Below are positions 2,270 to 61,537 of a stretch of 64,000 nt of DNA, piece by piece. Under the pieces are notes generated by a model. It was not told where the DNA came from. It saw nothing but the letters and a program-made list of their open reading frames with translations, and did not search any database. Location: contig CM049320.1 in NCBI GenBank assembly GCA_026874595.1, forward strand, positions 5,399,464 to 5,463,463, given 5' to 3'. The first letter of the stretch is position 1; every line of letters starts with the position of its first letter. The translations under genes and the position numbers were made by a program. Source of the stretch: Sipunculus nudus (lineage: Eukaryota > Annelida > Sipuncula > Golfingiida > Sipunculidae).

Positions 2270-4745
2270 TATCATATTAAATGTTAGAGGTATGCATCAG
2301 ATGACTAAAAGGAGAGAAATCTATTACTGGTTACTTAGTAAAAAAGGAGCTGAAAGTATTATTTTTTTACAAGAAGCTCATTACACCGAAGATAATCAAA
2401 AAGAATTTAGACGAGACTGGCCTTGGATATCATATTTTTCCACGGAACAAATCTTGCACGAGGTGTAATTTCATTAATTGGGAATAACCTCGAATTTTGA
2501 GGAAATAAGTTGCAAGATAGACATTTACGGACGATTCATAATTTTAAAAGCTGAAGTGCAAGGCTCAAGATTAATCCTAATAAACACTTATGCCCAAAAT
2601 ACGGAAAAGCTACAGATAGAACACTTCAACAGAATAAAATGATGTAATTTCAGACATCGACCCCGAGGCAGAATTTTGTAAGATATGGGGTGGGGACTTT
2701 ACTATATGTCAAACAAATGCTGATGCTGATTCAAACTTTAAGCTAAAGTCGAATCAACTAATTAATTATATATAATCTCGATATGATCTTATAGACCTTC
2801 GGAGAATAAGGAATCCCGATCGTCGTCAATACACTTGGAGATCCATTGATCCTCTACGGCAAAGTACGTTAGATTACATTTTTATTTCATCTGATTTAAA
2901 TGCAGCTGTACACGATGTTGAAATCATACCTGCAATTTTGACTGACCATTCGGCAGTGATAGCTTTGTTAAATACAGAACCCAATCATCCACATGGCCCT
3001 TTTTATTGGAAGTTAAATACATCGCTGTTACAGGATGCAGACTATATTGAACTTCTGAAAAGTTTTATCACAGACTTGAGAGAAAATATAAGGAAAAAAT
3101 TGGATGAGCAGTTATGGTGGAATCACGTTAAATATAATATAAGAGTATTTACGATCAAGTATTCAAAGGCTAAAATTAAAAAAGAGAGAGCTAAAATTAA
3201 TTTATTAGAAAAAAAGTTAAAACATGCTGAGATACGCTTAAGTACAAACCCTGATGATCAAATAAACTATAATTTAATCAAACAAGAATTAGAAGATTAT
3301 CATCATAAAATCTCACCCGAGGCTTAATAATAAGATTAAGGGTTAAGTGGTTTGAGGAGGGAGAACGAAGTACAAAATATGTTTTGAAGCTTGAGAGAAG
3401 AAATAAACGAAAATCCACAATCAGAAAATTGGTTGTGAATGATAAAGTAATCACTGATCCAGCTTCATTTTGAATGAAATAAAATTATTAAAAAAAATAC
3501 AAACGAGCGAACTATATTCAAGAGAATGAACAACCAAAAATACTTGCCGATATTAATGTTCCGACACTTCCAGCAGACGAAGCAGAGTTTTGTAAGGGAC
3601 TTGTAAGCAAATAGGAAGTTTTAGCAGCCTTAAAAGAAATGAACAATAATAAAACCCCAGGTAACGATGGATTGCTTAAAGAATTTTACATAGAGATTTT
3701 TGACGCACTAGGAGATGATTTTGTTAACTGTTTAAATAAATGTTATATGAAAGTGTCACTTACAAATAGCCAGCGGAAAGCAGTGGTCACACTCGTGGAA
3801 AAAACAGGTAAAGATATCAGATATATATCCTCATGGAGGCCAATAAGTTTAGTAAATGTTGATGTTAAAGTCCTTCGTAAAATTTTAGTTAAACGTATTC
3901 AGTCGGTTCTGCCAAAAATAAAAGGTGATGATCAAACGGCCTTTATTAAAGGTCGGAAAATATCAGACACAACCCGTCTTATAAGCGATGTGATTGATTA
4001 CTGCTTATCAGGAACAAACAGGCAATTCTGTTCGCAATAGATTTTGTAGCAGCATTTGATTCTTCAGATTATAGTTTTCCATTTAGAGTCCTACATAAAT
4101 TTGGTTTGGAAAAAAAACTTTATTCTTTGGGTCAAGCTATAGCATAAAGGTTTGAAAAGTTGCGTAATTAATAACGGTTACTCGACAGGATATTTCGATC
4201 TAGAAAGGGGAACCCGACAGGGAGACCCATTGGCTCCATATTTATTTTTAATGGTTATTGAAGTTTTGGCAATACTGATAATAGAATCCCATGCTGTTAA
4301 AAGCATCCATATTGGTAACTTTGAAATAAAACAGTTCTTATTTGCCGATGATACAACATTTTTTTCTTAAGGATATCGATTCAATGGGAGTGGTTTGTTC
4401 AATTTTAGAAAGATTTAAAGTATGTTCCTCTGTAGAAAATAATTACCATAAATGTGAGGCGGCATGGCGGGGGGGGGGACAAATTGTTTACCGTATAATA
4501 GCCGTTTTAAATGGGTAAATCTACATACAGACGCAATAAAAAATCTTGGGATATATTTTTCATATAGACAGGATCTCTGCAACATGTATAATTTTGAAAA
4601 GGTTTATGATAAGATCAGATTATTATTCAATTAATAGAAACCAAGACCCTTGACAATTTTCGGCAGAAATGAAATTGTGAAAACTTTCGGAACGTCTAAG
4701 TTACTATATATTATGTACACGATGGATATTAAAAAAATGCATGGT
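2270..4745 (+). pseudogene. LINE ORF2 (endonuclease plus reverse transcriptase), multiply broken
   Basis: ORF2 normally nicks target DNA with an APE-type endonuclease and primes reverse transcription there. Visible pieces, in order: endonuclease N-terminus (LNVRGM, then FLQEAHYTED) near 2275-2400; the late endonuclease block YTWRSIDP..STLDYIFISSDL and TDHSAV near 2840-2960; RT block NNNKTPGNDGLLKEFY at 3640; WRPISLVNVDVKVL near 3840; motif A FAIDFVAAFDS near 4030-4060, reached only by changing frame; motif B GTRQGDPLAPYLF near 4210; motif C FADDTTFF at 4343; and a thumb-side stretch including NLGIYFSY near 4540 and a segment like TIFGRNEIVKT near 4650. At least four frame breaks or stops separate these blocks. 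The usual tail past the RT is not recognisable. Confidence 0.8.
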
Positions 4746-17457: not shown

Positions 17458-18571
17458 CTTTGAATTGAATCATCTTATTTGCCAAACCTTTTGAAAAAGC
17501 AAAGTTACGAACAAAAGGAAAGAGAATGGGATAACAAAATCGTAAAGGGTGGTGGTGTTAGATTTAACCATCAATATTTCGGTATTTTGTAACTCTTGTT
17601 AATGAAAGATCCAACAATATGTTCACAAAGCAGATTATTCCTTAATATTACTTTTTTCCTATTTAAACTGTTTTAACAATTGAAGGGCTGTCGTAAAAAT
17701 AACAGAGTATAAAAACTGTTCAATTTTTTTTAGCAAATAATGACTTAGAAATTTGGATTTTCTTTCTTAACAATATTGATTGAGACTTGTACATTTTGGT
17801 AATATTTGTACTGAAATTTTTTTTTTAGTTTTCTATACATCTATATTTATATTACAGGTATTAATTTAATAATTTGCACCCAGTCACATATTGAATGTCT
17901 TCATATGTCATCTTCTTCACCGAAACATTTAAGCTTTATATCTCATTTCAGATTGTTCAGAAATTTACGGCCTCGGGGGTCGAGCTGACGGAATTTACGT
18001 CATCAAACCCCGTGACGCTCCTTCGCCTTTCCGCGTCCTCTGCGAACTCAGTCTGGACGGAGGATGGACGGTCATCATGAGGAGATTTAACGGTTCCGTC
18101 GATTTCTACCGGAAGTGGACGGATTACAAAAGAGGGTTTGGGTCCCTGGCAGGTGAACACTGGTTGGGAAATGATAACATCCATTGGCTAACGTCACAGA
18201 AGAACTACAGGCTTCAGCTGGAAATGAGGTACTGGGCCAGTAAGATCTCGTAATATGCGCTATATAACCGCTTCTCTGTCGATAGTGAGGCTAAAAAGTA
18301 CAAGTTGAATATACACGGTTACCGTGGTAACGTTGGCCATGATGGTCTGTCACCTTACAACGGTAAAGTCTTCAGCACTTGGGACAGAGATAACGATGCG
18401 TCGTCAGCTCACTGTGCTCAAGTCTGTAAGGGAGCCTTTTGGTACTACACCTGTCATAATTATGCAAATCCTACCGGCATGTACAAGGCGTCCTGTGGGG
18501 GGCACGACTGCATAGAATGGAAATCGCTCCAAGCCCTTGATCAAATCCTAATGAAAGTCAAACATGACTGA
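16995..18571 (+). pseudogene. secreted fibrinogen-related protein (FReD), locus A, one in-frame stop
   Basis: Invertebrate FReD proteins are secreted lectin-like molecules that bind carbohydrate or acetylated ligands in innate immunity. Exon 1 (16995-17214) gives a signal peptide (LAHMCVLILLTKSVAASS), a Cys pair (DQCHVTC) and a short coiled coil (DIDALKGEFGQLQDRVKALE), ending at AGAG|GTAAGT in phase 1. Exon 2 (17952-18571) follows TTTCAG| and encodes the fibrinogen domain: C-S-E-I-Y-G-L near its start, LDGGWTVIMRRFNGSVDFYR, calcium-site DRDND near residue 218, and ending MKVKHD. The spliced frame would be 279 residues, but codon 174 is TAA (18251-18253) where locus B has TAT. Everything after it stays in frame, so this is a recent or polymorphic null, or a sequencing error. 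The C-terminal end is atypical, with extra cysteines (SCGGHDCIEW). An alternative start is the ATG at 17004. Confidence 0.82.
17393..17454. repeat. (TA)n microsatellite in the FReD A intron
   Basis: About 30 TA units within the intron between the two FReD exons. Confidence 0.95.
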
Positions 18572-22487: not shown

Positions 22488-23860
22488 ATGATGAGAATGC
22501 CGCCACAGGTGTGCCTTTTCGTTTTGCTGTCTAAGGGTCTAGAAGCTCTAAGTTCTGACCAGTGTCATGTGACATGCCGGGACATCGACGCACTGGAAGG
22601 AAAGCTTGGCCGGTTTCAGGACAGAATAGACGCTCTGGAGGGAGGACATAAGGGCATAGTGTGTGATGTGAGAGACATCAAGCGACTAGATGGCTCACTA
22701 CCAAGAGGTAAGGAACAATTTTGTAATAAATGATGAACACAACTTTAAAATGGATACAAAGAAAAACACAAAAGGGATATGTAAAAAACCGAACTGTTTT
22801 AAATAAATTTAATTCGATAAAACTCATATCAACATAAAAAATTGTTTAATACTTCAAAATGAATTATCAGCAAAGTCACAAGCACACGTTGAATAATGTA
22901 ATGTTTGGTAAAATATCTACTGTAGAGGTTAATCTCAATACATTTATCATAAAATAATTTTATCATATTTCGTTGTTTTGTTAATCCTGAATTTTAAATA
23001 TACACCTGCCTATGCAAAATATATAAAACTGAAAATCGTATGAAAATCTAGAAAGAAACTGAAATTCTCGATAAAAATTTTGCCATGAATAACTTATGAT
23101 TTTTTTTTTTAATTTCAGAACAACATGACATATGATGATTTTGGTGTTTATTCTTTCTACCCAATCAATTATATGAATTATTATTATTATTATTTATATG
23201 GCTAAATCACACAAAATATATGGTACCAAGATAATGGTTAATTTTCTCTTTCAGATGGTTCAGAGATCTACGCCCTAGAGGCTCGTGCTGATTGGATTTA
23301 CGTCATCAAACCACTTGACGCTCCCTCTCCTTTTCGGGTGCTCTGTGAACTCAGTCTGGACGGAGGATGGACCGTTATCATGAAGAGATTTAACGGTTCT
23401 GGAAATGGGCTGATTATAAGAGAGGGTTTGGTTCCCTGGCAGGGTAGCACTGGTTGGGAAATGACAAATCCACTGGCTGACGTCACAGAAGAACTACAGG
23501 CTGCTGCTTGACATGAGGTACTGGGGCAATAAGATCTCTTATTATGCATCATATGACCGCTTCTCTGTCGACAGCGAGGGTTTAAAGTACAAGTTAAACA
23601 TACACGGTTACCGTGGTAACTTTGGTCACGACGGTATGTCGAGGTTAAACAGCAGACCCTTTAGCACATGGGACAGAGATAACGATATTTGGTCGGGCCA
23701 CTGTGCCCAGTACTACAAAGGGGCTTACTGGAACAACAACTGTCAAACTTATGCATGCGTCACCGGCCTTTACAAGGCGTCCTGTAGGGCACACAACTGA
23801 ATGGAATGGAATAGAGGTCAAGCTCTCGACCGAGTCCTGATGAAGGTCAAACATGACTAA
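22488..23860 (+). pseudogene. secreted fibrinogen-related protein (FReD), locus B, frameshifted
   Basis: Paralogue of locus A with the same two-exon layout and phase 1 junction. Exon 1 (22488-22707) encodes a signal peptide (PPQVCLFVLLSKGLEALSS), DQCHVTC and a coiled coil with VCDVRDIKR. The position homologous to the locus A start is GTG at 22479, so the first ATG is 22488. Exon 2 opens at 23255 after TTTCAG|. Compared with locus A it lacks 13 nt after AACGGTTC near 23400 and one more base near 23468, so the frame is lost in the middle of the domain. A TGC-to-TGA change near the end (23798-23800) adds a stop. Calcium-site DRDND and the C-terminal MKVKHD are still readable. Taken as sequenced it is a pseudogene; the lesions differ from those of locus A. 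Confidence 0.8.
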
Positions 23861-46700: not shown

Positions 46701-47945
46701 CTAAATCTGGTGTTATCTTTATAGTTATCACCTGATTTCGATTATTTCCATTTTAATGACAACAAATGATACAGTATAATTGGAGGCATTAATTTCCGCT
46801 TCGCCACCTAGCGGCCATATCCCAAAAAATATTTATACTGTTTTTAATTATACGTCTATCTCTCGCTCGCAATCTATTTCAGCCACGTTATTATTTTTTT
46901 TAAAGTGAAGCTGTAGCTGTAATGTTTTCTAGAGCAGTTAGGATACGTTAAGGTGATACCAATGAACACGCGACAGCAAAACTATAAACATATAATAAAC
47001 TCAAACGCACAATTTAACCACAATAGGATGTGGTTTTACACCCAAGAATATACACGGTCTATTATGGTATTTTCGCATACCACGGAATATAACTTATCAA
47101 GGTTCGTGATTCGCCCTTAAATGCAACTCGACCGCCCGCTTTGTAAAATAAGCCTCAGAAGCTAGAACTGCGTCGAGTTTTCTCGGATATTCGAGACATT
47201 TAATGGTGTATTTTGCCCATTTTGGATGCTCTCTCGCTTGGTTAAACCTACTTTAATCAAACTTTACTTTTAAAATCCCCTGTGATTTCTTTGCTTGCAA
47301 ACAAAGTACATAATTTGAAGAGAACTAAGACATCCCATAATAATACATGCCATAACAAAAGTATAGATATAAAAAAAAATAAAAATAAAAAAGCTTACCT
47401 TTTCGCAGCATTACGTAACTGCATATCATCATAAATGGAACCGATACAGGAAACATAATAGACTGTAATACCGGCGGTGTCCGCAAGGGATCGCTGGCGT
47501 ATCCCAACATGATTGCATTAAGAGTAAGGAGAAATCCAACAAGTACACAGAATCCCATCGTGTTATGCGGTAAAAGAGACATCTCTCGGTCAAACACGAA
47601 TTTGTAGAATAAAAATAACACTAGTATTACCCATATTTGCATGAATGTGGCGTAAAGCACCCCATGGTAAATACTGATTTCCAAGTTATCAAGATAATCA
47701 GCATATAAGGCAATTGAGATTATAGCAACAGTTAGACCGATGACGCCAGTCGCGACGAGAAATGCGCAGAAGAGATTTCTAGACACAGCGAATCCGAGGA
47801 CTAAAATGCGTTGAGCGGCCTCTGGCGGCGGAGGACCGGGGCTCTGGCTGCCTCCAGCCTCTCCGTCTATGGTGTACAGACTGTTGCTGTCCTGAACCAG
47901 CTGCCGACGGTCCATGTCCATCGTGAGGGTGTACCCTACTGTTAT
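43757..47945 (-). CDS. CRT-like multipass transporter (drug/metabolite transporter superfamily), 420 aa
   Basis: Four coding exons splice in frame on the minus strand: 47945-47399 (ATG at 47921, donor AAAAG|GTAAGC), 46275-46052 (TTGCAG| to GACGCG|GTTAGT), 44681-44562 (TTTCCAG| to CACCAC|GTGAGG) and 44152-43757 (ACTGCAG| to stop). Codon phases match at every junction and give 420 residues. The product has about ten hydrophobic spans. The wording SDPLRTPPVLQSIMFPVSVP with FMMICSYVMLRKG recalls the chloroquine-resistance-transporter-like branch, whose Plasmodium member has nearly the same length, as does GWCFLIGSATVNVSTI with a late small-residue-rich span. An acidic/basic cytosolic tail (ARKEEEHLLRTRQYMP) follows. 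Such proteins export amino acids, peptides or drugs from acidic compartments; substrate and compartment are unknown here. An acceptor (tttttttcag|) 24 nt before the ATG implies a 5'-UTR intron. Family call is by motif memory. Confidence 0.72.
44811..45600. repeat. intronic diverged repeat with gaccttgacctt words
   Basis: Phrases of the form aaattgtttc...gggtttgaaaactggtgac recur near 44850, 45120, 45398 and 45540, each followed by a gaccttcatcttcaag or caaataagccgat-like phrase. They lie in the intron between the second and third coding exons of the transporter. Spacing is irregular, so units have suffered indels. Confidence 0.55.
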
Positions 47946-48030
47946 CTGAAAAAAAAATAAGTGATTGCCGCATTAACGCAACTGGAGACCCTGGGCCAGG
48001 ATATATACCTATATTGTGGTAACAATTTCA

Positions 48031-48074
48031 GCCATGACTTCGATGCGGTCTGCTAGGTTAAGGGAACCGGCTAT
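48031..48074 (-). repeat. 44-bp inverted piece of the element at the array 5' junction
   Basis: These 44 bases are the exact reverse complement of 48316-48359 within copy 1. They are followed at once by the forward element sequence starting ctacgaaatggtccgg. The junction shares the three bases tat with both partners. Such 5' inversions are a known feature of PLE insertions. Confidence 0.92.
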
Positions 48075-49949
48075 CTACGAAATGGTCCGGAACATTGAAT
48101 TTCAGCACTCACACAATGCATTCCAGAAACAAATGGCCAATGACATCAAAACAATCAGACAATCTGACAATCTCCTAGTACAGGCAGATAAGACAACCAA
48201 CCTGTACAGTATGCCGAAAGAACACTACAATTAACTTCTTACAGAAAACATCACTAAGAAATACAAAAAAGCAGACAGAAATATCTGTAAAAATATCAAT
48301 ACAGAAGCCAAAGATATAGCCGGTTCCCTTAACCTAGCAGACCGCATCGAAGTCATGGCCGAGCGCAATGCTTACATTACTTTTAAAGACCACAAGGATA
48401 ATTTTGAACAAAACCCCAAGTGCAGATTGATTAATCCAGCAAAATCTGAAATAGGTATCATTAGCAAAAAGCACTTGGAAAAAATTAATAGCCAACTGAG
48501 ACTGAAAACCAAACTCAACCAGTGGCAAAATACCGCACAGGTAATATCTTGGTTCAAGAAATTGAAGCTGAAACAAAAATCTAAGTTCATAAAGTTTGAT
48601 ATTGTTGACTTTTACCCCTCGATCACAGAAGATCTTCTCATGAAAGCCCTCAAATTTGCCAAAACCATGGTCTCCATTCCAGAGGATGTTATCAAAACCA
48701 TCCTGCACAGCAGGAAAAGCTTACTGTTTAGCAACGGTAACACCTGGGTGAAAAAAGATCACACTAGTTTTGACGTCACCATGGGCAGTTTTGATGGCGC
48801 TGAAGTATGCGAAATTGTTGGTTTATACATCCTAGATATGTTGAAAAAGGAATTTGGTGTAAATGCTCTAGGCCTGTATCGTGATGACGGTTTAGGTTGT
48901 TTCCCCAACATGTCTGGACCCAAAGTAGACAGCACCCGTAAGAAAATGATCAAACTCTTTTCCAATGTTGGGTTAAAGATAACCATTGAAACTAACCTGA
49001 CCTGCACAGATTTCTTAGACGTAACATTTGACCTCCAAAATGACATCTTCTACCCTTACAGAAAACCGAACAATGACCCTCTCTATATCCACGCACAATC
49101 CAATCACCCCCCAGCTATCATTAGGCAGATACCTATGATGATCAGTAAACGTGTTTCTGACAACTCCTGCAATAAAGAGCTATTTATGAAAGCCAAACCC
49201 ATGTATGATGAAGCTTTAGCGAAAAGCGGGTTCTCAGAAAGCTTAAAATATGTTGAACCAACAGTGAAAAGCAAGAGAAACAGGAAAAGGAAAATAATAT
49301 GGTTTAATCCACCCTAGAGCCGTCATGTAAAAACCAACATTGGCAGAAAATTCATGAAACTAGTTGAAAAACACTTCCCTCAACATCACAGGTACCACAG
49401 GTTATTCAACAGGAACAATTTGAAAATTAGCTACAGCTGTCTACCCAACATGTCTAACCTGATCAGCAAACATAATATGAAGGTTCTAAATTCTGACAAT
49501 GCTGTGAATGCACCCCAAAAACAATGTAACTGCCGTAAAAAAGACGAATGTCCTATGAATGGTCAATGTCAGCTGAAATGCATTGTCTATAAAGCAACAG
49601 TTAGAACAGACAATGACGTGAAACACTACATAGGGTGTACTGAAGGTGATTTCAAGACAAGATATAATAACCACAAGCAATCCTTTCGGAACAGATCCCA
49701 CGCTAAAAACACTGAACTGTCTAAACACATTTGGTCACTAAAAGACAACAATATCAATTAAAAGCTCTCCTGGGAAATATCTGCCAAGGCAGCACCTTAC
49801 TTCTGTGGGACTAGGAAGTGTGATCTCTGCTTGTCTGAAAAGCTACTTATAGCTACTGCCCCCCTGGATCATTGTTGAACTCAAGAGCTGAAATTCTCTC
49901 CAAGTGCCGCCATCAAAACAAATTCACCCTGAAATATTTTAAAACCTAG
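48061..49949 (+). pseudogene. PLE copy 1, 5'-truncated RT/GIY-YIG ORF with four lesions
   Basis: The copy begins at the residue equivalent to IYEMVRN in intact copies and keeps the RT and nuclease regions. Lesions: TAA at 48232-48234 (AAA in other copies), TAG at 49315-49317 (shared with copy 2), TAA at 49759-49761 (TAC elsewhere) and loss of one C in the run near 49862, shifting the frame at the C-terminus. It also has private substitutions, such as GTA for GCA in the SGPK-V-DST stretch. The inverted piece upstream happens to supply an in-frame ATG at 48034, but the frame closes after 67 codons. Confidence 0.9.
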
Positions 49950-49981
49950 CATTCGTACTAATATTCAGCGTGCCCCCTTAA

Positions 49982-50004
49982 CCCCCCCCCCCCCCCCCCC
50001 CCCC
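49982..50004 (+). repeat. C23 homopolymer after PLE copy 1 ORF
   Basis: The equivalent tracts are C15 (52911-52925), C13 (55831-55843) and C14 (58752-58765). A second tract per unit is C13 (50460), C12 (53381), C15 (56299) and C11 (59221). On the opposite strand these are G-runs. Confidence 0.9.
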
Positions 50005-50555
50005 AACGAGGATCCGCTGGGCAGACTCATTTGTTCAGGTAGTTGTTCTCTCACTGCTGGCTCGTGGAGTCCATTGGATGAGAGGGAAGTTCTACTTTAT
50101 CCTGGTCTAATGGGCTTTACGACCTCCAGCTAGGAGACTTGCACCACTTGGTATGGGTATAGTATATTTGCCTTTTATATTGTATATTTGCCTTGTATAT
50201 TGTGTATTTTCACAGTATATGTGTATTTTTATCATATCATATGTATACTACTGATATGTTCACTGCTTCCAAGGCCCTATTAGAAATCATTTCAATATGC
50301 TGATTGAGCATCCTGGTTATATCTTTGTATTATATTTACTATTTACTACATTATATAACCTCTTTGCCCTGCCCTGTTATGTTCCAGTATCGCACGTGTA
50401 CCCCGACCAATCCTATTGTGCACCCGAGAACAATAGGATCAGTGTCAGTCTTTCACATGCCCCCCCCCCCCCGACCCGAATCGCACAAAGCATAATCTCG
50501 TAATCTCGTAAAGTCTCGGCTTTTCAAACCACGACCTTAGCTTCATTCTAACCAC

Positions 50556-50603
50556 ATTCACCTGATGATCGGGTCGCATCCCGTGAAACAGTCTGTTGTG
50601 AAT
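50556..50603 (+). ncRNA. type I hammerhead ribozyme, PLE copy 1/2 boundary
   Basis: Stem I pairs ATTCAC (50556-50561) with GTGAAT (50598-50603). The core CTGATGA (50562-50568) is followed by stem II CGGG/CCCG (570-573 with 580-583, loop TCGCAT) closed by a T-T pair. GAAA (50585-50588) leads into stem III ACA/TGT with loop GTC. The predicted cleavage is after T50597 (GUU triplet). A TAACA bulge beyond stem I could contact loop II. Such minimal-stem-III hammerheads are established in PLE pseudo-LTRs. Confidence 0.88.
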
Positions 50604-50766
50604 TAACAGTGTTGTTTTTCTTCAGAGTTATACCGCTCTGGCCTAGCTTGTAGGCCATAGAGCACTTTACATCGGAGGGTAACACTACCTTCTACTCCAG
50701 CTCCAGCGACAGGTACGTTGTCGAGCACTTTTGTTAACCCACCCTGTCCAGAAATTCAACTTGTAA

Positions 50767-52878
50767 CTCTACAGAATCAACAAAGCTAACTTCAACTACT
50801 CTTTGAAAAACATTCCCATCCCTAGTAATCTGTCCTATACCAAATCCCTGATAAGTAAAGTTGAAAGCCTACTTCGGAGAATGCGATGGAAGGCATTCCA
50901 TTTCGAAAACCCTGGTCAAACTTCAGATAAACAAAACTATGGATTCAAAACCACATATTCACCCCCTCATAGCGAACACCTCAGGGCATTTGAAAGTGAT
51001 ATCTACGAAATGGTCCGGAACATTGAATTTCAGCACTCACACAATGCATTCCAGAAACAAATGGCCAATGACATCAAAACAATCAGACAATCTGACAATC
51101 TCCTAGTACAGGCAGATAAGACAACCAACCTGTACAGTATGCCGAAAGAACACTACAATAAACTTCTTACAGAAAACATCACTAAGACATACAAAAAAGC
51201 AGACAGAAATATCTGTAAAAATATCAATACAGAAGCCAAAGAAATAGCCGGTTCCCTTAACCTAGCAGACCGCATCGAAGTCATGGCCGAGCGCAATGCT
51301 TACATTACTTTGAAAGACCACAAGGATAATTTTGAACAAAACCCCAAGTGCAGATTGATTAATCCAGCAAAATCTGAAATAGGTATCATTAGCAAAAAGC
51401 ACTTGGAAAAAATTAATAGCCTACTGAGACTGAAAACCAAACTCAACCAGTGGCAAAATACCGCACAGGTAATATCTTGGTTCAAGAAATTGAAGCTGAA
51501 ACAAAAATCTAAGTTCATAAAGTTTGATATTGTTGACTTTTACCCCTCGATCACAGAAGATCTTCTCATGAAAGCCCTCAAATTTGCCAAAACCATGGTC
51601 TCCATTCCAGAGGATGTTATCAAAACCATCCTGCACAGCAGGAAAAGCTTACTGTTTAGCAACGGTAACACCTGGGTGAAAAAAGATCACACTAGTTTTG
51701 ACGTCACCATGGGCAGTTTTGATGGCGCTGAAGTATGCGAAATTGTTGGTTTATACATCCTAGATATGTTGAAAAAGGAATTTGGTGTAAATGCTCTAGG
51801 CCTGTATCGTGATGACGGTTTAGGTTGTTTCCCCAACATGTCTGGACCCAAAGCAGACAGCACCCGTAAGAAAATGATCAAACTCTTTTCCAATGTTGGG
51901 TTAAAGATAACCATTGAAACTAACCTGACCTGCACAGATTTCTTAGACGTAACATTTGACCTCCAAAATGACATCTTCTACCCTTACAGAAAACCGAACA
52001 ATGACCCTCTCTATATCCACGCACAATCCAATCACCCCCCAGCTATCATTAGGCAGATACCTATGATGATCAGTAAACGTGTTTCTGACAACTCCTGCAA
52101 TAAAGAGCTATTTATGAAAGCCAAACCCATGTATGATGAAGCTTTAGCGAAAAGCGGGTTCTCAGAAAGCTTAAAATATGTTGAACCAACAGTGAAAAGC
52201 AAGAGAAACAGGAAAAGGAAAATAATATGGTTTAATCCACCCTAGAGCCGTCATGTAAAAACCAACATTGGCAGAAAATTCATGAAACTAGTTGAAAAAC
52301 ACTTCCCTCAACATCACAGGTACCACAGGTTATTCAACAGGAACAATTTGAAAATTAGCTACAGCTGTCTACCCAACATGTCTAACCTGATCAGCAAACA
52401 TAATATGAAGGTTCTAAATTCTGACAATGCTGTGAATGCACCCCAAAAACAATGTAACTGCCGTAAAAAAGACGAATGTCCTATGAATGGTCAATGTCAG
52501 CTGAAATGCATTGTCTATAAAGCAACAGTTAGAACAGACAATGACGTGAAACACTACATAGGGTGTACTGAAGGTGATTTCAAGACAAGATATAATAACC
52601 ACAAGCAATCCTTTCGGAACAGATCCCACGCTAAAAACACTGAACTGTCTAAACACATTTGGTCACTAAAAGACAACAATATCAATTACAAGCTCTCCTG
52701 GGAAATATCTGCCAAGGCAGCACCTTACTTCTGTGGGACTAGGAAGTGTGATCTCTGCTTGTCTGAAAAGCTACTTATAGCTACTGCCCCCCATGGATCA
52801 TTGTTGAACTCAAGAGCTGAAATTCTCTCCAAGTGCCGCCATCAAAACAAATTCACCCTGAAATATTTTAAAACCTAG
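50767..52878 (+). pseudogene. PLE copy 2, full-length ORF with one amber codon
   Basis: Identical in layout to the intact copies. The only coding lesion I see is TAG at 52243-52245, where copies 3 and 4 have TAC, in the linker after the RT (FNPP-stop-SRHVKTN). The rest of the linker and the GIY-YIG nuclease remain open to 52878. As it stands it would make an RT without nuclease unless the stop is read through. The open frame starts after the TAA at 50764-50766 and has no ATG for its first 38 codons or so; see copy 3. Confidence 0.9.
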
Positions 52879-53475
52879 CATTCGTACTAATATTCAGCGT
52901 GCCCCCTTAACCCCCCCCCCCCCCCAACGAGGATCCGCTGGGCAGACTCATTTGTTCAGGTAGTTGTTCTCTCACTGCTGGCTCGTGGAGTCCATTGGAT
53001 GAGAGGGAAGTTCTACTTTATCCTGGTCTAATGGGCTTTACGACCTCCAGCTAGGAGACTTGCACCACTTGGTATGGGTATAGTATATTTGCCTTTTATA
53101 TTGTATATTTGCCTTGTATATTGTGTATTTTCACAGTATATGTGTATTTTTATCATATCATATGTATACTACTGATATGTTCACTGCTTCCAAGGCCCTA
53201 TTAGAAATCATTTCAATATGCTGATTGAGCATCCTGGTTATATCTTTGTATTATATTTACTATTTACTACATTATATAACCTCTTTGCCCTGCCCTGTTA
53301 TGTTCCAGTATCGCACGTGTACCCCGACCAATCCTATTGTGCACCCGAGAACAATAGGATCAGTGTCAGTCTTTCACATGCCCCCCCCCCCCGACCCGAA
53401 TCGCACAAAGCATAATCTCGTAATCTCGTAAAGTCTCGGCTTTTCAAACCACGACCTTAGCTTCATTCTAACCAC

Positions 53476-53523
53476 ATTCACCTGATGATCGGGTCGCATC
53501 CCGTGAAACAGTCTGTTGTGAAT
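53476..53523 (+). ncRNA. type I hammerhead ribozyme, PLE copy 2/3 boundary
   Basis: Sequence identical to the ribozyme at 50556. Predicted cleavage is after 53517, which sets a 2920-nt unit from the first site. Confidence 0.88.
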
Positions 53524-53686
53524 TAACAGTGTTGTTTTTCTTCAGAGTTATACCGCTCTGGCCTAGCTTGTAGGCCATAGAGCACTTTACATCGGAGGGT
53601 AACACTACCTTCTACTCCAGCTCCAGCGACAGGTACGTTGTCGAGCACTTTTGTTAACCCACCCTGTCCAGAAATTCAACTTGTAA

Positions 53687-55798
53687 CTCTACAGAATCAA
53701 CAAAGCTAACTTCAACTACTCTTTGAAAAACATTCCCATCCCTAGTAATCTGTCCTATACCAAATCCCTGATAAGTAAAGTTGAAAGCCTACTTCGGAGA
53801 ATGCGATGGAAGGCATTCCATTTCGAAAACCCTGGTCAAACTTCAGATAAACAAAACTATGGATTCAAAACCACATATTCACCCCCTCATAGCGAACACC
53901 TCAGGGCATTTGAAAGTGATATCTACGAAATGGTCCGGAACATTGAATTTCAGCACTCACACAATGCATTCCAGAAACAAATGGCCAATGACATCAAAAC
54001 AATCAGACAATCTGACAATCTCCTAGTACAGGCAGATAAGACAACCAACCTGTACAGTATGCCGAAAGAACACTACAATAAACTTCTTACAGAAAACATC
54101 ACTAAGACATACAAAAAAGCAGACAGAAATATCTGTAAAAATATCAATACAGAAGCCAAAGAAATAGCCGGTTCCCTTAACCTAGCAGACCGCATCGAAG
54201 TCATGGCCGAGCGCAATGCTTACATTACTTTGAAAGACCACAAGGATAATTTTGAACAAAACCCCAAGTGCAGATTGATTAATCCAGCAAAATCTGAAAT
54301 AGGTATCATTAGCAAAAAGCACTTGGAAAAAATTAATAGCCTACTGAGACTGAAAACCAAACTCAACCAGTGGCAAAATACCGCACAGGTAATATCTTGG
54401 TTCAAGAAATTGAAGCTGAAACAAAAATCTAAGTTCATAAAGTTTGATATTGTTGACTTTTACCCCTCGATCACAGAAGATCTTCTCATGAAAGCCCTCA
54501 AATTTGCCAAAACCATGGTCTCCATTCCAGAGGATGTTATCAAAACCATCCTGCACAGCAGGAAAAGCTTACTGTTTAGCAACGGTAACACCTGGGTGAA
54601 AAAAGATCACACTAGTTTTGACGTCACCATGGGCAGTTTTGATGGCGCTGAAGTATGCGAAATTGTTGGTTTATACATCCTAGATATGTTGAAAAAGGAA
54701 TTTGGTGTAAATGCTCTAGGCCTGTATCGTGATGACGGTTTAGGTTGTTTCCCCAACATGTCTGGACCCAAAGCAGACAGCACCCGTAAGAAAATGATCA
54801 AACTCTTTTCCAATGTTGGGTTAAAGATAACCATTGAAACTAACCTGACCTGCACAGATTTCTTAGACGTAACATTTGACCTCCAAAATGACATCTTCTA
54901 CCCTTACAGAAAACCGAACAATGACCCTCTCTATATCCACGCACAATCCAATCACCCCCCAGCTATCATTAGGCAGATACCTATGATGATCAGTAAACGT
55001 GTTTCTGACAACTCCTGCAATAAAGAGCTATTTATGAAAGCCAAACCCATGTATGATGAAGCTTTAGCGAAAAGCGGGTTCTCAGAAAGCTTAAAATATG
55101 TTGAACCAACAGTGAAAAGCAAGAGAAACAGGAAAAGGAAAATAATATGGTTTAATCCACCCTACAGCCGTCATGTAAAAACCAACATTGGCAGAAAATT
55201 CATGAAACTAGTTGAAAAACACTTCCCTCAACATCACAGGTACCACAGGTTATTCAACAGGAACAATTTGAAAATTAGCTACAGCTGTCTACCCAACATG
55301 TCTAACCTGATCAGCAAACATAATATGAAGGTTCTAAATTCTGACAATGCTGTGAATGCACCCCAAAAACAATGTAACTGCCGTAAAAAAGACGAATGTC
55401 CTATGAATGGTCAATGTCAGCTGAAATGCATTGTCTATAAAGCAACAGTTAGAACAGACAATGACGTGAAACACTACATAGGGTGTACTGAAGGTGATTT
55501 CAAGACAAGATATAATAACCACAAGCAATCCTTTCGGAACAGATCCCACGCTAAAAACACTGAACTGTCTAAACACATTTGGTCACTAAAAGACAACAAT
55601 ATCAATTACAAGCTCTCCTGGGAAATATCTGCCAAGGCAGCACCTTACTTCTGTGGGACTAGGAAGTGTGATCTCTGCTTGTCTGAAAAGCTACTTATAG
55701 CTACTGCCCCCCATGGATCATTGTTGAACTCAAGAGCTGAAATTCTCTCCAAGTGCCGCCATCAAAACAAATTCACCCTGAAATATTTTAAAACCTAG
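53687..55798 (+). CDS. PLE copy 3, intact reverse transcriptase/GIY-YIG endonuclease
   Basis: The product copies RNA into DNA and nicks target DNA with its own nuclease. Numbering from the TTG at 53723 (691 codons): conserved PLE N-terminus (NIPIPSNLSYTKSLISKVES, RRMRWKAF), RT block ITLKDHKDNFEQNPKCRLIN near 170-190, motif A FDIVDFYPS with Asp242, motif B TMGSFDGAEV, motif C YRDDG with Asp337/338, and thumb-side DFLDVTFDL and YIHAQSNHPP. A Cys-rich linker (C-x-C-x5-C-x5-C-x3-C) precedes the GIY-YIG domain: IVYKATV, HYIGCTEG (Tyr585-Gly587), Arg596, His600 and the probable catalytic Glu614. A second Cys group (CGTRKCDLC) follows. No ATG opens the frame: it runs from the codon after TAA (53684-53686), and residues LYRINKANFNYS before the TTG look like conserved coding sequence. 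Start may be non-AUG or lie in a spliced upstream exon; ctctacag just upstream resembles an acceptor. Confidence 0.92.
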   Translation, partial: LYRINKANFNYSLKNIPIPSNLSYTKSLISKVESLLRRMRWKAFHFENPGQTSDKQNYGFKTTYSPPHSEHLRAFESDIYEMVRNIEFQHSHNAFQKQMANDIKTIRQSDNLLVQADKTTNLYSMPKEHYNKLLTENITKTYKKADRNICKNINTEAKEIAGSLNLADRIEVMAERNAYITLKDHKDNFEQNPKCRLINPAKSEIGIISKKHLEKINSLLRLKTKLNQWQNTAQVISWFKKLKLKQKSKFIKFDIVDFYPSITEDLLMKALKFAKTMVSIPEDVIKTILHSRKSLLFSNGNTWVKKDHTSFDVTMGSFDGAEVCEIVGLYILDMLKKEFGVNALGLYRDDGLGCFPNMSGPKADSTRKKMIKLFSNVGLKITIETNLTCTDFLDVTFDLQNDIFYPYRKPNNDPLYIHAQSNHPPAIIRQIPMMISKRVSDNSCNKELFMKAKPMYDEALAKSGFSESLKYVEPTVKSKRNRKRKIIWFNPPYSRHVKTNIGRKFMKLVEKHFPQHHRYHRLFNRNNLKISYSCLPNMSNLISKHNMKVLNSDNAVNAPQKQCNCRKKDECPMNGQCQLKCIVYKATVRTDNDVKHYIGCTEGDFKTRYNNHKQSFRNRSHAKNTELSKHIWSLKDNNINYKLSWEISAKAAPYFCGTRKCDLCLSEKLLIATAPHGSLLNSRAEILSKCRHQNKFTLKYFKT

Positions 55799-56396
55799 CA
55801 TTCGTACTAATATTCAGCGTGCCCCCTTAACCCCCCCCCCCCCAACGAGGATCCGCTGGGCAGACTCATTTGTTCAGGTAGTTGTTCTCTCACTGCTGGC
55901 TCGTGGAGTCCATTGGATGAGAGGGAAGTTCTACTTTATCCTGGTCTAATGGGCTTTACGACCTCCAGCTAGGAGACTTGCACCACTTGGTATGGGTATA
56001 GTATATTTGCCTTTTATATTGTATATTTGCCTTGTATATTGTGTATTTTCACAGTATATGTGTATTTTTATCATATCATATGTATACTACTGATATGTTC
56101 ACTGCTTCCAAGGCCCTATTAGAAATCATTTCAATATGCTGATTGAGCATCCTGGTTATATCTTTGTATTATATTTACTATTTACTACATTATATAACCT
56201 CTTTGCCCTGCCCTGTTATGTTCCAGTATCGCACGTGTACCCCGACCAATCCTATTGTGCACCCGAGAACAATAGGATCAGTGTCAGTCTTTCACATGCC
56301 CCCCCCCCCCCCCGACCCGAATCGCACAAAGCATAATCTCGTAATCTCGTAAAGTCTCGGCTTTTCAAACCACGACCTTAGCTTCATTCTAACCAC

Positions 56397-56444
56397 ATTC
56401 ACCTGATGATCGGGTCGCATCCCGTGAAACAGTCTGTTGTGAAT
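56397..56444 (+). ncRNA. type I hammerhead ribozyme, PLE copy 3/4 boundary
   Basis: Identical core and stems. Predicted cleavage is after 56438, giving a 2921-nt unit from the second site. Confidence 0.88.
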
Positions 56445-56607
56445 TAACAGTGTTGTTTTTCTTCAGAGTTATACCGCTCTGGCCTAGCTTGTAGGCCATA
56501 GAGCACTTTACATCGGAGGGTAACACTACCTTCTACTCCAGCTCCAGCGACAGGTACGTTGTCGAGCACTTTTGTTAACCCACCCTGTCCAGAAATTCAA
56601 CTTGTAA

Positions 56608-58719
56608 CTCTACAGAATCAACAAAGCTAACTTCAACTACTCTTTGAAAAACATTCCCATCCCTAGTAATCTGTCCTATACCAAATCCCTGATAAGTAAA
56701 GTTGAAAGCCTACTTCGGAGAATGCGATGGAAGGCATTCCATTTCGAAAACCCTGGTCAAACTTCAGATAAACAAAACTATGGATTCAAAACCACATATT
56801 CACCCCCTCATAGCGAACACCTCAGGGCATTTGAAAGTGATATCTACGAAATGGTCCGGAACATTGAATTTCAGCACTCACACAATGCATTCCAGAAACA
56901 AATGGCCAATGACATCAAAACAATCAGACAATCTGACAATCTCCTAGTACAGGCAGATAAGACAACCAACCTGTACAGTATGCCGAAAGAACACTACAAT
57001 AAACTTCTTACAGAAAACATCACTAAGACATACAAAAAAGCAGACAGAAATATCTGTAAAAATATCAATACAGAAGCCAAAGAAATAGCCGGTTCCCTTA
57101 ACCTAGCAGACCGCATCGAAGTCATGGCCGAGCGCAATGCTTACATTACTTTGAAAGACCACAAGGATAATTTTGAACAAAACCCCAAGTGCAGATTGAT
57201 TAATCCAGCAAAATCTGAAATAGGTATCATTAGCAAAAAGCACTTGGAAAAAATTAATAGCCTACTGAGACTGAAAACCAAACTCAACCAGTGGCAAAAT
57301 ACCGCACAGGTAATATCTTGGTTCAAGAAATTGAAGCTGAAACAAAAATCTAAGTTCATAAAGTTTGATATTGTTGACTTTTACCCCTCGATCACAGAAG
57401 ATCTTCTCATGAAAGCCCTCAAATTTGCCAAAACCATGGTCTCCATTCCAGAGGATGTTATCAAAACCATCCTGCACAGCAGGAAAAGCTTACTGTTTAG
57501 CAACGGTAACACCTGGGTGAAAAAAGATCACACTAGTTTTGACGTCACCATGGGCAGTTTTGATGGCGCTGAAGTATGCGAAATTGTTGGTTTATACATC
57601 CTAGATATGTTGAAAAAGGAATTTGGTGTAAATGCTCTAGGCCTGTATCGTGATGACGGTTTAGGTTGTTTCCCCAACATGTCTGGACCCAAAGCAGACA
57701 GCACCCGTAAGAAAATGATCAAACTCTTTTCCAATGTTGGGTTAAAGATAACCATTGAAACTAACCTGACCTGCACAGATTTCTTAGACGTAACATTTGA
57801 CCTCCAAAATGACATCTTCTACCCTTACAGAAAACCGAACAATGACCCTCTCTATATCCACGCACAATCCAATCACCCCCCAGCTATCATTAGGCAGATA
57901 CCTATGATGATCAGTAAACGTGTTTCTGACAACTCCTGCAATAAAGAGCTATTTATGAAAGCCAAACCCATGTATGATGAAGCTTTAGCGAAAAGCGGGT
58001 TCTCAGAAAGCTTAAAATATGTTGAACCAACAGTGAAAAGCAAGAGAAACAGGAAAAGGAAAATAATATGGTTTAATCCACCCTACAGCCGTCATGTAAA
58101 AACCAACATTGGCAGAAAATTCATGAAACTAGTTGAAAAACACTTCCCTCAACATCACAGGTACCACAGGTTATTCAACAGGAACAATTTGAAAATTAGC
58201 TACAGCTGTCTACCCAACATGTCTAACCTGATCAGCAAACATAATATGAAGGTTCTAAATTCTGACAATGCTGTGAATGCACCCCAAAAACAATGTAACT
58301 GCCGTAAAAAAGACGAATGTCCTATGAATGGTCAATGTCAGCTGAAATGCATTGTCTATAAAGCAACAGTTAGAACAGACAATGACGTGAAACACTACAT
58401 AGGGTGTACTGAAGGTGATTTCAAGACAAGATATAATAACCACAAGCAATCCTTTCGGAACAGATCCCACGCTAAAAACACTGAACTGTCTAAACACATT
58501 TGGTCACTAAAAGACAACAATATCAATTACAAGCTCTCCTGGGAAATATCTGCCAAGGCAGCACCTTACTTCTGTGGGACTAGGAAGTGTGATCTCTGCT
58601 TGTCTGAAAAGCTACTTATAGCTACTGCCCCCCCTGGATCATTGTTGAACTCAAGAGCTGAAATTCTCTCCAAGTGCCGCCATCAAAACAAATTCACCCT
58701 GAAATATTTTAAAACCTAG
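56608..58719 (+). CDS. PLE copy 4, intact reverse transcriptase/GIY-YIG endonuclease
   Basis: Same protein as copy 3 apart from ATAPPGSLL in place of ATAPHGSLL close to the C-terminus. All RT and nuclease residues listed for copy 3 are kept, and there is no stop in the linker. The open frame again begins right after a TAA without ATG; the equivalent TTG is at 56644. The downstream leader has private changes relative to copies 1-3: gcacctcttgg, tatcttatcat, ataatctcataat and cgacgttagc. This suits its place as the terminal copy. Confidence 0.92.
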   Translation, partial: LYRINKANFNYSLKNIPIPSNLSYTKSLISKVESLLRRMRWKAFHFENPGQTSDKQNYGFKTTYSPPHSEHLRAFESDIYEMVRNIEFQHSHNAFQKQMANDIKTIRQSDNLLVQADKTTNLYSMPKEHYNKLLTENITKTYKKADRNICKNINTEAKEIAGSLNLADRIEVMAERNAYITLKDHKDNFEQNPKCRLINPAKSEIGIISKKHLEKINSLLRLKTKLNQWQNTAQVISWFKKLKLKQKSKFIKFDIVDFYPSITEDLLMKALKFAKTMVSIPEDVIKTILHSRKSLLFSNGNTWVKKDHTSFDVTMGSFDGAEVCEIVGLYILDMLKKEFGVNALGLYRDDGLGCFPNMSGPKADSTRKKMIKLFSNVGLKITIETNLTCTDFLDVTFDLQNDIFYPYRKPNNDPLYIHAQSNHPPAIIRQIPMMISKRVSDNSCNKELFMKAKPMYDEALAKSGFSESLKYVEPTVKSKRNRKRKIIWFNPPYSRHVKTNIGRKFMKLVEKHFPQHHRYHRLFNRNNLKISYSCLPNMSNLISKHNMKVLNSDNAVNAPQKQCNCRKKDECPMNGQCQLKCIVYKATVRTDNDVKHYIGCTEGDFKTRYNNHKQSFRNRSHAKNTELSKHIWSLKDNNINYKLSWEISAKAAPYFCGTRKCDLCLSEKLLIATAPPGSLLNSRAEILSKCRHQNKFTLKYFKT

Positions 58720-59314
58720 CATTCGTACTAATATTCAGCGTGCCCCCTTAACCCCCCCCCCCCCCAACGAGGATCCGCTGGGCAGACTCATTTGTTCAGG
58801 TAGTTGTTCTCTCACTGCTGGCTCGTGGAGTCCATTGGATGAGAGGGAAGTTCTACTTTATCCTGGTCTAATGGGCTTTACGACCTCCAGCTAGGAGACT
58901 TGCACCTCTTGGTATGGGTATAGTATATTTGCCTTTTATATTGTATATTTGCCTTGTATATTGTGTATTTTCACAGTATATGTGTATTTTTATCTTATCA
59001 TATGTATACTACTGATATGTTCACTGCTTCCAAGGCCCTATTAGAAATCATTTCAATATGCTGATTGAGCATCCTGGTTATATCTTTGTATTATATTTAC
59101 TATTTACTACATTATATAACCTCTTTGCCCTGCCCTGTTATGTTCCAGTATCGCACGTGTACCCCGACCAATCCTATTGTGCACCCGAGAACAATAGGAT
59201 CAGTGTCAGTCTTTCACATGCCCCCCCCCCCGACCCGAATCGCACAAAGCATAATCTCATAATCTCGTAAAGTCTCGGCTTTTCAAACCACGACGTTAGC
59301 TTCATTCTAACCAC

Positions 59315-59362
59315 ATTCACCTGATGATCGGGTCGCATCCCGTGAAACAGTCTGTTGTGAAT
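59315..59362 (+). ncRNA. type I hammerhead ribozyme, 3' end of PLE array
   Basis: Identical core and stems although its flanks carry private changes. Predicted cleavage is after 59356, releasing a 2918-nt unit; the array ends 96 nt later. Confidence 0.88.
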
Positions 59363-59472
59363 TAACAGTGTTGTTTTTCTTCAGAGTTATACCGCTCTGG
59401 CCTAGCTTGTAGGCCATAGAGCACTTTACATCGGAGGGTAACACTACCTTCTATATATATATATATATATAT

Positions 59473-60492
59473 GTTACAGTCAATGTGTAAAATCAGTCAC
59501 TTTGTAAATTGCCTAAAACTTTAAGTCAATTTAAAAATTGCCTGATTCACTCAGGCACTTTATATAATAACTCAAATTTTCAAGCATTTTACAAACTGAC
59601 TGAAAAATCAGTCTATTTATTTGACACATTGACTGAAATGTAAAAAGAAGGAAATATTTTGTTTTAAGGTTGCAAATGCTAAAATGATATATCATTTATT
59701 TCATATACCTTACTCTTACAAAACATAAATGCATCTTACATCATATTATTGAACAATTTTATAATGTATTTAATCAGAAGAATCCTTCTGGCTTAATTCT
59801 ATAGTTCTTAAAGAAATAATTATATAATCATATGAGATGTACATAATTACATATTTCAGGGGCACAATTTCCTTTTGCACTTTGGGGAGCAATGTAGGTG
59901 GGATGACCCCCTCCCTTTCTATCAAAATTACAGCAATATTGAAGCACATTTGGTGTAAAATAAAGCTTTATAAACCAGCAACACATTAAATTGTTTGACC
60001 AAAAAAATACTTAGGAGAGCAAACATCCCCTGAGAAACCCCCCAACCCTTGGTTCCGCCGCTGGTTATTTCACAATAAAACTTTGAAATCTGCATGGATC
60101 ATTTAATTTGTACCATACACAATGTCACGGAAAAAAGTGAATTATGGCATATTATCAGTCATTGCGTTAAGTTAGTTTTTAAGTATTTCTGAAAGATAAC
60201 ACTCTTTTAATATTTGAAGAAAAAGTTACACATTTGTGTAAATAAATCTATTTTTTTTTGACAAAATGACATTCTGTTATTTGTCAATTTTCTTTTTTTT
60301 GGGGGGGGGGGGGGGCGTTAATATAGTATGTCCACTGAGGTCCCCCTCCCCCCCCCCCCCCCCCGTTCCCCTACAAATCGCACTTCTGTACTGCTTTACT
60401 AACAGTTGACTACTCAACACTACCAGCCATCACAGTTAACAAATACAGTTGATATAATTCTGGTTAAACTCTATCCCTTGTAACTCACCTAA

Positions 60493-60557
<65 letters not shown>

Positions 60558-61103
60558 TCGTATATTTGATATTAATAACCATGTAACATTCTACAATCTA
60601 CATCATTCATTTCACCTAGTATTGCACATAAAAATTTTAATTTTTGTAATGTGTTATTTTACCAAAAGCTTCCATTTGACTTTATTCTCGTTCTTACACT
60701 AGCTAAGATGTAGCTGATGAGATATAGTATGCAAATTTCATTATGTTGTAATAGTCTGCATATTTTAACTATATGAATCTGTATACCCCTCAACATCCTG
60801 TGTATTACGTGATCAGTATTCATCATAAATAGCCTAGAAGGATAAAAAAGGCACAAAATTTACTTAAAAGTAGCTGGTTACACTAATTGGCACTTTCTGT
60901 TTCACAATAATGAGATTAATGAAACAACAGACTATCCCATATCTATTCAGTCAATGTGTTAAATAAACTGATTTTTCAGTCAATTTGTAAAATGCCTGAA
61001 TTTCAGTCATTTTATAAGGTGCCTGAGTGAATCAGGCAATATATAAATTGACTAAAAATTTCAGGCAATAACAAATTGACTGATTTTACACATTGACTGT
61101 AAC
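59473..61103. mobile_element. 1.63-kb non-autonomous DNA transposon with about 160-bp TIRs
   Basis: The left repeat (59473-59637, starting gttacagtcaatgtgtaaaa) and the right repeat (60946-61103, reverse starting gttacagtcaatgtgtaaaa) align over their whole length with roughly nine in ten bases equal. Both sides are bordered by TA repeats, compatible with TA-targeted insertion. The interior has no transposase frame, only AT-rich sequence, G15 and C18 runs at 60301-60364 and a (TA)n tract. Each repeat also contains inverted cagtcaatgtgt/acacattgactg at its own ends. Confidence 0.8.
60494..60554. repeat. (TA)n microsatellite inside the TIR element
   Basis: Pure TA dinucleotides, about 30 units. 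Confidence 0.95.
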
Positions 61104-61537
61104 AAATATATATATATATATATAATAATTATAGATATCATCTGTGAAATACTGGTGTTATTGTATTTAAAAATTTTCGGGATCTGCGCATGTCCAGCGG
61201 GGTCACCGTGTACGGACTGCGATTAATGGCCATCAGCGAAGATCTGGACCTTAAATTGACCTGCATTAGTCCAGACCTACTTTCACAACATTGGTAATCA
61301 ACATCGATAAGATAGAGGTATGAGAAATAAGAATGACCGCTGGGTGAATTGGATTCTTCGCGGATGATAAGATAATGTCGACATGTATTTAAATACTTCC
61401 TCAGGAAGCTCTAACTGACCTTGTCTGATCCCTTGCTGCCGATCCTGTCAATACTGAGCTTATAAATAGTCTGATGTGTTGTGAACGTAATGTATATATT
61501 TCCCTTTCCCTCACAGTTTTTTTTTCACTTATTTATG

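Follow-up and report, generated by a model that had tools for sequence, protein, structure and literature searches.

The window analyzed here is a stretch of 64,000 nucleotides from Sipunculus nudus (assembly GCA_026874595.1, contig CM049320.1, positions 5,399,464 to 5,463,463), and its positions 48031 to 59453 are occupied by a tandem array of a protein-coding element. The first-pass annotation had placed the array at 50556..59362; the tandem repeats are indeed present there, but the array is longer. From 5' to 3', it opens with an inverted piece of 44 nt, continues with one 5'-truncated and three full units, and closes with a stub of 97 nt. Units were phased by the predicted cut of a hammerhead ribozyme (HHR)-like motif, and unit position 1 is the first base past this cut. 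U2 (53518..56438, with position 1 at 53518) served as the reference. It is preceded by U0 (48072..50597), which starts at unit position 403 and has an interrupted open reading frame (ORF), and by U1 (50598..53517), in which one in-frame TAG interrupts the ORF; it is followed by U3 (56439..59356) and by the stub (59357..59453), all on the plus strand. Identity to U2 was 99.80% for U1, 99.66% for U3, and 99.17% for U0 over its 2.5 kb. The stub consists of the end of the pseudo-long terminal repeat (pLTR) plus a “tail” and runs into (TA)n; it represents the actual 3' end of the insertion. The pLTR across the U2/U3 junction (56164..56473, plus strand; unit 2647-2921 plus 1-35, with the bounds taken from locus L013) contains the HHR-like motif and a TATATAA box at unit 2674. 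The inverted piece at the 5' edge (48031..48074, minus strand; unit 690-647, 100% identical over 44 nt) resembles the head-to-head inverted pieces described for insertions of Penelope-like elements (PLEs) (PMC3846280). A pair of inverted repeats (59452-59523 and 61053-61124, 86% complementary over 72 nt) begins directly at the 3' border of the array; these are perhaps the ends of another element.

U2 and U3 each carry an open frame of 703 amino acids from stop to stop (53687..55798 and 56608..58719, plus strand). In U2, a reverse transcriptase (RT) core from FDIVDFYPSI to YRDDG (54443..54739) is followed by a cysteine-rich stretch, QCNCRKKDECPMNGQCQLKC (amino acids 562-581; 55370..55429), located between RT and endonuclease, and by GIY-YIG-like motifs (IVYKATV ... 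YIGCTEG; 55430..55534), all on the plus strand and read by eye. FYPSI and YRDDG are taken by us as RT motifs and IVYKATV and YIGCTEG as GIY-YIG-like ones. The Pfam model RVT_1 matched the RT segment with an E value of 0.0026 and 18.0 bits, which is under the cut-off of 29.6, and Pfam GIY-YIG gave no match in the ORF; searches of Pfam, NCBIfam, and PDB with the ORF returned nothing above the cut-offs and no PDB relative. The earlier statement that the array encodes an RT and a nuclease agrees with this outcome, for the nuclease by virtue of the motifs read by eye.

PLEs are described as having direct and inverted pLTRs and an optional “tail” (PMC3846280). The family shows pLTRs, tandem and partial tandem copies, an inverted pLTR, an optional 3' tail, and, by descriptor and with the pLTR bounds of L013, a hammerhead motif within the pLTR. 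The element of the array is a Penelope-like retroelement with one ORF. With Neptune-type PLEs it shares the single ORF leading from RT through a cysteine-rich stretch to a GIY-YIG-like C terminus, and also the structure of tandem and inverted pLTRs; unlike in those elements, the GIY-YIG domain is below Pfam detection. It is probably of the Neptune type, as suggested by one feature, the cysteine-rich stretch recognized by eye.

The first AUG of a cleaved monomer, counted from position 1, is at unit 284, in frame and 38 codons into the frame that is open from 170. A strong-looking splice donor, CAGGTACGT, is present at unit 113 (CAG|GTACGT, e.g., window position 53630), and CTACAG, near unit 177, resembles an acceptor; by eye, unit 113 to about 177 may be a short intron where the open frame begins. 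Another, pyrimidine-rich acceptor-like site, TTTTTCTTCAG, lies at unit 18-28, just beyond the predicted HHR cut.

When both strands of the whole window were scanned with a descriptor, exactly four HHR-like motifs emerged, all on the plus strand and with an identical sequence of 48 nt, as had been claimed. They are located at 50556..50603, 53476..53523, 56397..56444, and 59315..59362, with cores beginning at 50562, 53482, 56403, and 59321 and predicted cuts after 50597, 53517, 56438, and 59356. The first bases past the cut had been correctly given as 50598, 53518, 56439, and 59357, and the distances of 2920, 2921, and 2918 nt between the cuts are also right; these distances are, however, no independent evidence. 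Units as similar as these (identity to U2 of 99.80% for U1 and 99.66% for U3) make near-equal spacing automatic, and for the same reason the four matches count as one finding.

The descriptor found the features of a type I hammerhead: a conserved core, three stems, an NUH cleavage site, and a molecule open at stem I. Stem I has 6 bp, stem II has 4 bp above an unpaired U-U at positions 10.1/11.1, and stem III has 3 bp (ACA/UGU, loop GUC); the cleavage site is GUU^G. A register with the cut after GAAACAGUC was rejected because stem I would then need four unpaired bases, and the GUU^G register gives 6+4+3 bp. The U-U was absent from the first description of the motif. The hammerhead consensus has a G-C pair at the base of stem II. 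U10.1-U11.1 nevertheless occurs in natural HHRs and is reported to be the best tolerated mispair, allowing more cleavage than any other (PMC3088659), and the axolotl HHR_Amex2, whose helix II has a U-U at its base, cleaved to 22% in 1 h as a monomer and far better as a dimer (PMC7229834).

The whole window was shuffled 150 times with dinucleotides preserved, and both strands were searched; 3 loose matches and 0 matches as strong as the motif appeared, with a descriptor that allowed a mispair at 10.1/11.1 and was composed after the motif had been seen, and with shuffles that represent the composition of one window. Rfam 15 gave zero matches in the entire window at the gathering threshold and no hammerhead at E values up to 10 in 47000-61000 and 50530-50640; low-scoring Rfam rows (miRNA, snoRNA, and others) were taken as chance. 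As a monomer, the hammerhead fold of the motif (−7.5 kcal/mol) lies 5.3 kcal/mol above the minimum-energy fold of the same 64 nt (−12.8 kcal/mol), and the z value of minimum-energy folding, about −0.75, is uninformative for the motif. Stem III plus its loop, ACAGUCUGU, is self-complementary except for the middle U, as read from the sequence; a dimer could therefore form 8 pairs there. A search for relatives in viral contigs produced 5 pattern matches, 0 of which were confirmed.

The genome of 1.43 Gb in 153 contigs contains many more copies. In the protein search, 63 places were scored among 4241 first-look candidates; each of the 63 matched across 702 or 703 residues with 99 to 100% identity and an E value of 0. 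These figures mark the family as young and abundant, and we infer that it has been recently active. Two neighborhoods deserve mention. On contig C17 (42720332-42862826), the matches listed include 26 of the same element across 142 kb, and eight pairs of listed matches are 38,028 to 38,029 bp apart (about 13 units); this spacing may be read as a segmental duplication or higher-order repeat, or as an assembly effect. On contig C1 (55954211-55966903; L044, L045, and L049), two arrays with two listed ORF matches each are arranged head-to-head, and the outer ends of this pair are at unit 35 and 97, as described for PLEs with a one-ended tail.

Because the family is young, numerous, and near-identical, each end of an insertion can be compared with the predicted cut. 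A total of 71 loci of the same genome (L009-L079) were mapped on the unit; several of these cover the window itself, and L001-L008, which were other RVT_1 matches, were left out. The loci were the best protein matches, the best leader matches, or adjoining stretches and thus constitute a non-random sample, in which the boundaries at head-to-head junctions were counted on both sides. Three of the ten stretches fetched to find ends (L046-L048) lay within arrays. Twenty-four distinct 3' boundaries resulted: 14 at unit 35, 1 at 36, 4 at 97, and 5 elsewhere (593, 1690, 2287, 2293, and 2789), the latter read as rearrangements or fragments. All 19 boundaries at 35, 36, or 97 enter TA-rich microsatellite DNA, and the inverted pLTRs of two loci, L013 and L016, end at 35. 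The unit itself reads TATA at 32-35 and TA at 96-97, which places the point of transition into the target within 31-35 and 95-97. In U2, these two sites correspond to 53548..53552, with the TATA common to unit and target, and to 53612..53614 (both plus strand). None of the 24 mapped 3' boundaries was at the HHR cut, and none of the 21 mapped 5' boundaries was at unit position 1, the nearest being at 30, 32, and 32; one 5' boundary (101) adjoins an N gap, and the array in the window has its own 5' edge at 403. All motifs printed for L009-L038 cross the cut without added bases. With 3' ends at two fixed points beyond the cut and none at the cut, a vague question becomes a set of testable alternatives.

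An RNA cut at the HHR cannot alone yield a full-length copy whose end lies 35 or 97 nt beyond the cut; the copied RNA was therefore uncut, religated, or bridged by the RT. These ends report the RNAs that became DNA and not the fate of most transcripts, and they suggest that the RNA copied into the genome was not simply cut at the HHR.

The likely explanation is that a recently active PLE, autonomous and probably Neptune-like, inserted here in tandem, and that the minimal type I HHR-like motif in its pLTR does not dice the transposing units. The anatomy in this reading is taken directly from the copies, and clade and activity are deduced. Transcription would start in the pLTR, upstream of the HHR, and the RT-endonuclease protein from the single ORF would cut TA-rich DNA. 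Reverse transcription would then begin at an internal site of the template, past the HHR cut: either unit 31-35, with a 4-nt match between the RNA and the (TA)n target, or unit 95-97, with a 2-nt match. Most simply, the copied RNA would span an uncut HHR, and tandem insertions would need the internal HHRs to be uncut too. The motif is probably a weak ribozyme needing a partner motif, via ACAGUCUGU, or a bound protein; it may act on some transcripts, or late, and would not dice the array into transposing units. Large arrays would grow additionally at the DNA level. A point against this explanation is that a circular template would produce identical 3' ends, and so would template jumping from one cut end to another.

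A comparison is offered by Poseidon_Ac (PAc) of Anolis carolinensis (PMC11167929). In that report, the HHR cut only with the protein present, HHR mutants inserted normally in vitro so that the HHR was dispensable, no RNA-seq ends were at the HHR site, and reverse transcription started from two internal sites coinciding with the tail ends, at AT-rich targets. Shared with the element from S. nudus are an HHR near the pLTR/ORF junction, two 3' sites downstream of the HHR cut, AT-rich targets, and tandem units. Poseidon_Ac differs in belonging to the Penelope/Poseidon clade and in having an ORF that starts inside the HHR, and, unlike in the anole element, the two end sites here have 4 or 2 nt in common with the (TA)n target. 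By analogy, the two 3' ends look like the same feature as the anole start sites, in another clade. The Penelope elements of Adineta vaga likewise have direct and head-to-head inverted pLTRs and an optional tail, which is 31 bp there and 62 nt here; they differ by a low copy number, and target-site duplications have been described for them (PMC3846280). HHRs in PLE terminal repeats have already been published (PMC7761336), for “all available PLE sequences” in the words of one report (PMC6155905). New are the family in S. nudus and, within a limited literature search, its (TA)n targeting and the position of insertion ends versus the HHR cut.

Alternatively, the HHR motif may be vestigial or barely active and have no present role, which we regard as unlikely. 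The U-U at 10.1/11.1, the weak stem III, the hammerhead fold that is not the minimum-energy fold, and the absence of an Rfam match agree with such a decay, and so does the variant count. Three types of variants were seen in the 48 nt. The ORF rate (151 in 2112) would predict about 3.4, and the rate in the remaining noncoding sequence (87 in 689) would predict 6.1. These counts show no clear constraint and give no usable signal of selection on the HHR, in a sample biased by how the loci were fetched. On the other hand, the 48 nt are unchanged in 61 of the 63 units covered, one of the others having two changes in stem II and one a change in loop II, and the U-U is a natural and well tolerated mispair (PMC3088659) with which HHR_Amex2 cleaves (PMC7229834).

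About as improbable is an origin of the array purely by DNA duplication, i.e., unequal crossing-over of one insertion, in which case both the array and the phasing of its HHRs would be uninformative on RNA. Some variants in the array of the window are common to only some of the units and appear in spatial order (unit 825, 1648, 2196, and 2860); together with the 38-kb repeat on C17 they point to exchange at the DNA level, unless the C17 repeat is an assembly effect. An exclusive role of duplication is opposed by copies with several units or a partial extra unit that are seen at numerous locations and have these two 3' ends in common, and such recurrent tandem copies are reported for PLEs generally (PMC11167929).

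In a third, still less probable scenario, the monomer RNA is cut and religated, and the RT of the autonomous element runs from unit 35 or 97 around this circle for several turns, leaving a tandem array in (TA)n. A circle would explain why the 3' end is past the cut while the array reads through the cut, and also the fair homogeneity of most arrays. Among 69 units of at least 1,000 nt from 16 arrays or single insertions, units differed by 2.15/kb within arrays (392 pairs) versus 7.06/kb between arrays (1792 pairs), so most arrays look descended from one unit type. In six of the seven groups with at least two long units the means were 0.35 to 3.12/kb, with 0.35/kb in two arrays of two long units each. 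However, the seventh group, on contig C15 (about 63.36 Mb, 4 units), is with 7.21/kb as diverse within as arrays are between each other, and single pairs in the group at 49.4-49.5 Mb of contig C12 reach 9.37/kb. Rolling-circle reverse transcription, a source array that was itself homogeneous, or DNA exchange at a later time, such as unequal crossing-over, would each account for the homogeneity, and the variants shared by subsets of units would need DNA-level exchange or a multimeric template in addition. Moreover, anole PLE RNA with a dead HHR inserts in vitro (PMC11167929). If a circle were nevertheless used, the PLE ribozyme would gain the role that it lacks, and rolling-circle reverse transcription would account for the tandem structure of PLEs.

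The interpretation originally attached to the motifs, that the HHRs efficiently cut read-through transcripts into linear unit-length RNAs serving as functional messages and templates, is equally doubtful. One HHR-like motif per unit of a coding tandem array stands; that dicing defines the RNA that matters is not supported. In favor are the four intact and identical motifs in a single orientation. PLE-associated HHR variants reportedly cleave “as dimers,” as the title of Lunse et al. 2017 has it. For metazoan retrozymes, processing of the repeats by type I HHRs in vivo has moreover been reported (PMC7229834), and copies ending past the cut could still arise if the RT, on reaching the 5' end of a monomer, jumped to the 3' end of the following one. 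Such end-to-end jumps might leave some added bases, which were not seen at the crossings in L009-L038. Several observations speak against this interpretation: 19 of 24 3' boundaries are 35, 36, or 97 nt beyond the cut and none coincides with it, the monomer start is not used by any of 21 5' boundaries, and tandem insertions read through the internal sites. The lack of an AUG before unit 284, the U-U mismatch, the monomer hammerhead fold well above the energy optimum, and the results with the anole element (PMC11167929) point the same way. The term “retrozyme-like” was not upheld either. Metazoan non-LTR retrozymes also carry type I HHRs in tandem repeats, with the U-U at the base of helix II in HHR_Amex2, but are about 170 to 400 nt in size and non-autonomous (PMC7229834), whereas the unit here has 2.9 kb and is protein coding, with the 703-amino-acid open frame in U2 and U3.

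Some other features of the window and the genome were recorded. Elsewhere in the window, a segment is duplicated about 5.3 kb apart (17946-18478 and 23249-23800), and its second copy has a fibrinogen C-terminal domain (Fibrinogen_C, E value of 1.1e-22); LINE-like pieces are located at 2776-4040 (weak Exo_endo_phos; RVT_1, E value of 2.3e-8). Of the 12 GIY-YIG matches in the genome, 11 are on contigs C61 to C138, and 9 of these 11 are in frames of 621 to 637 amino acids. This is the size of UvrC, and C61-C89 and C138 are perhaps bacterial contigs within the assembly.
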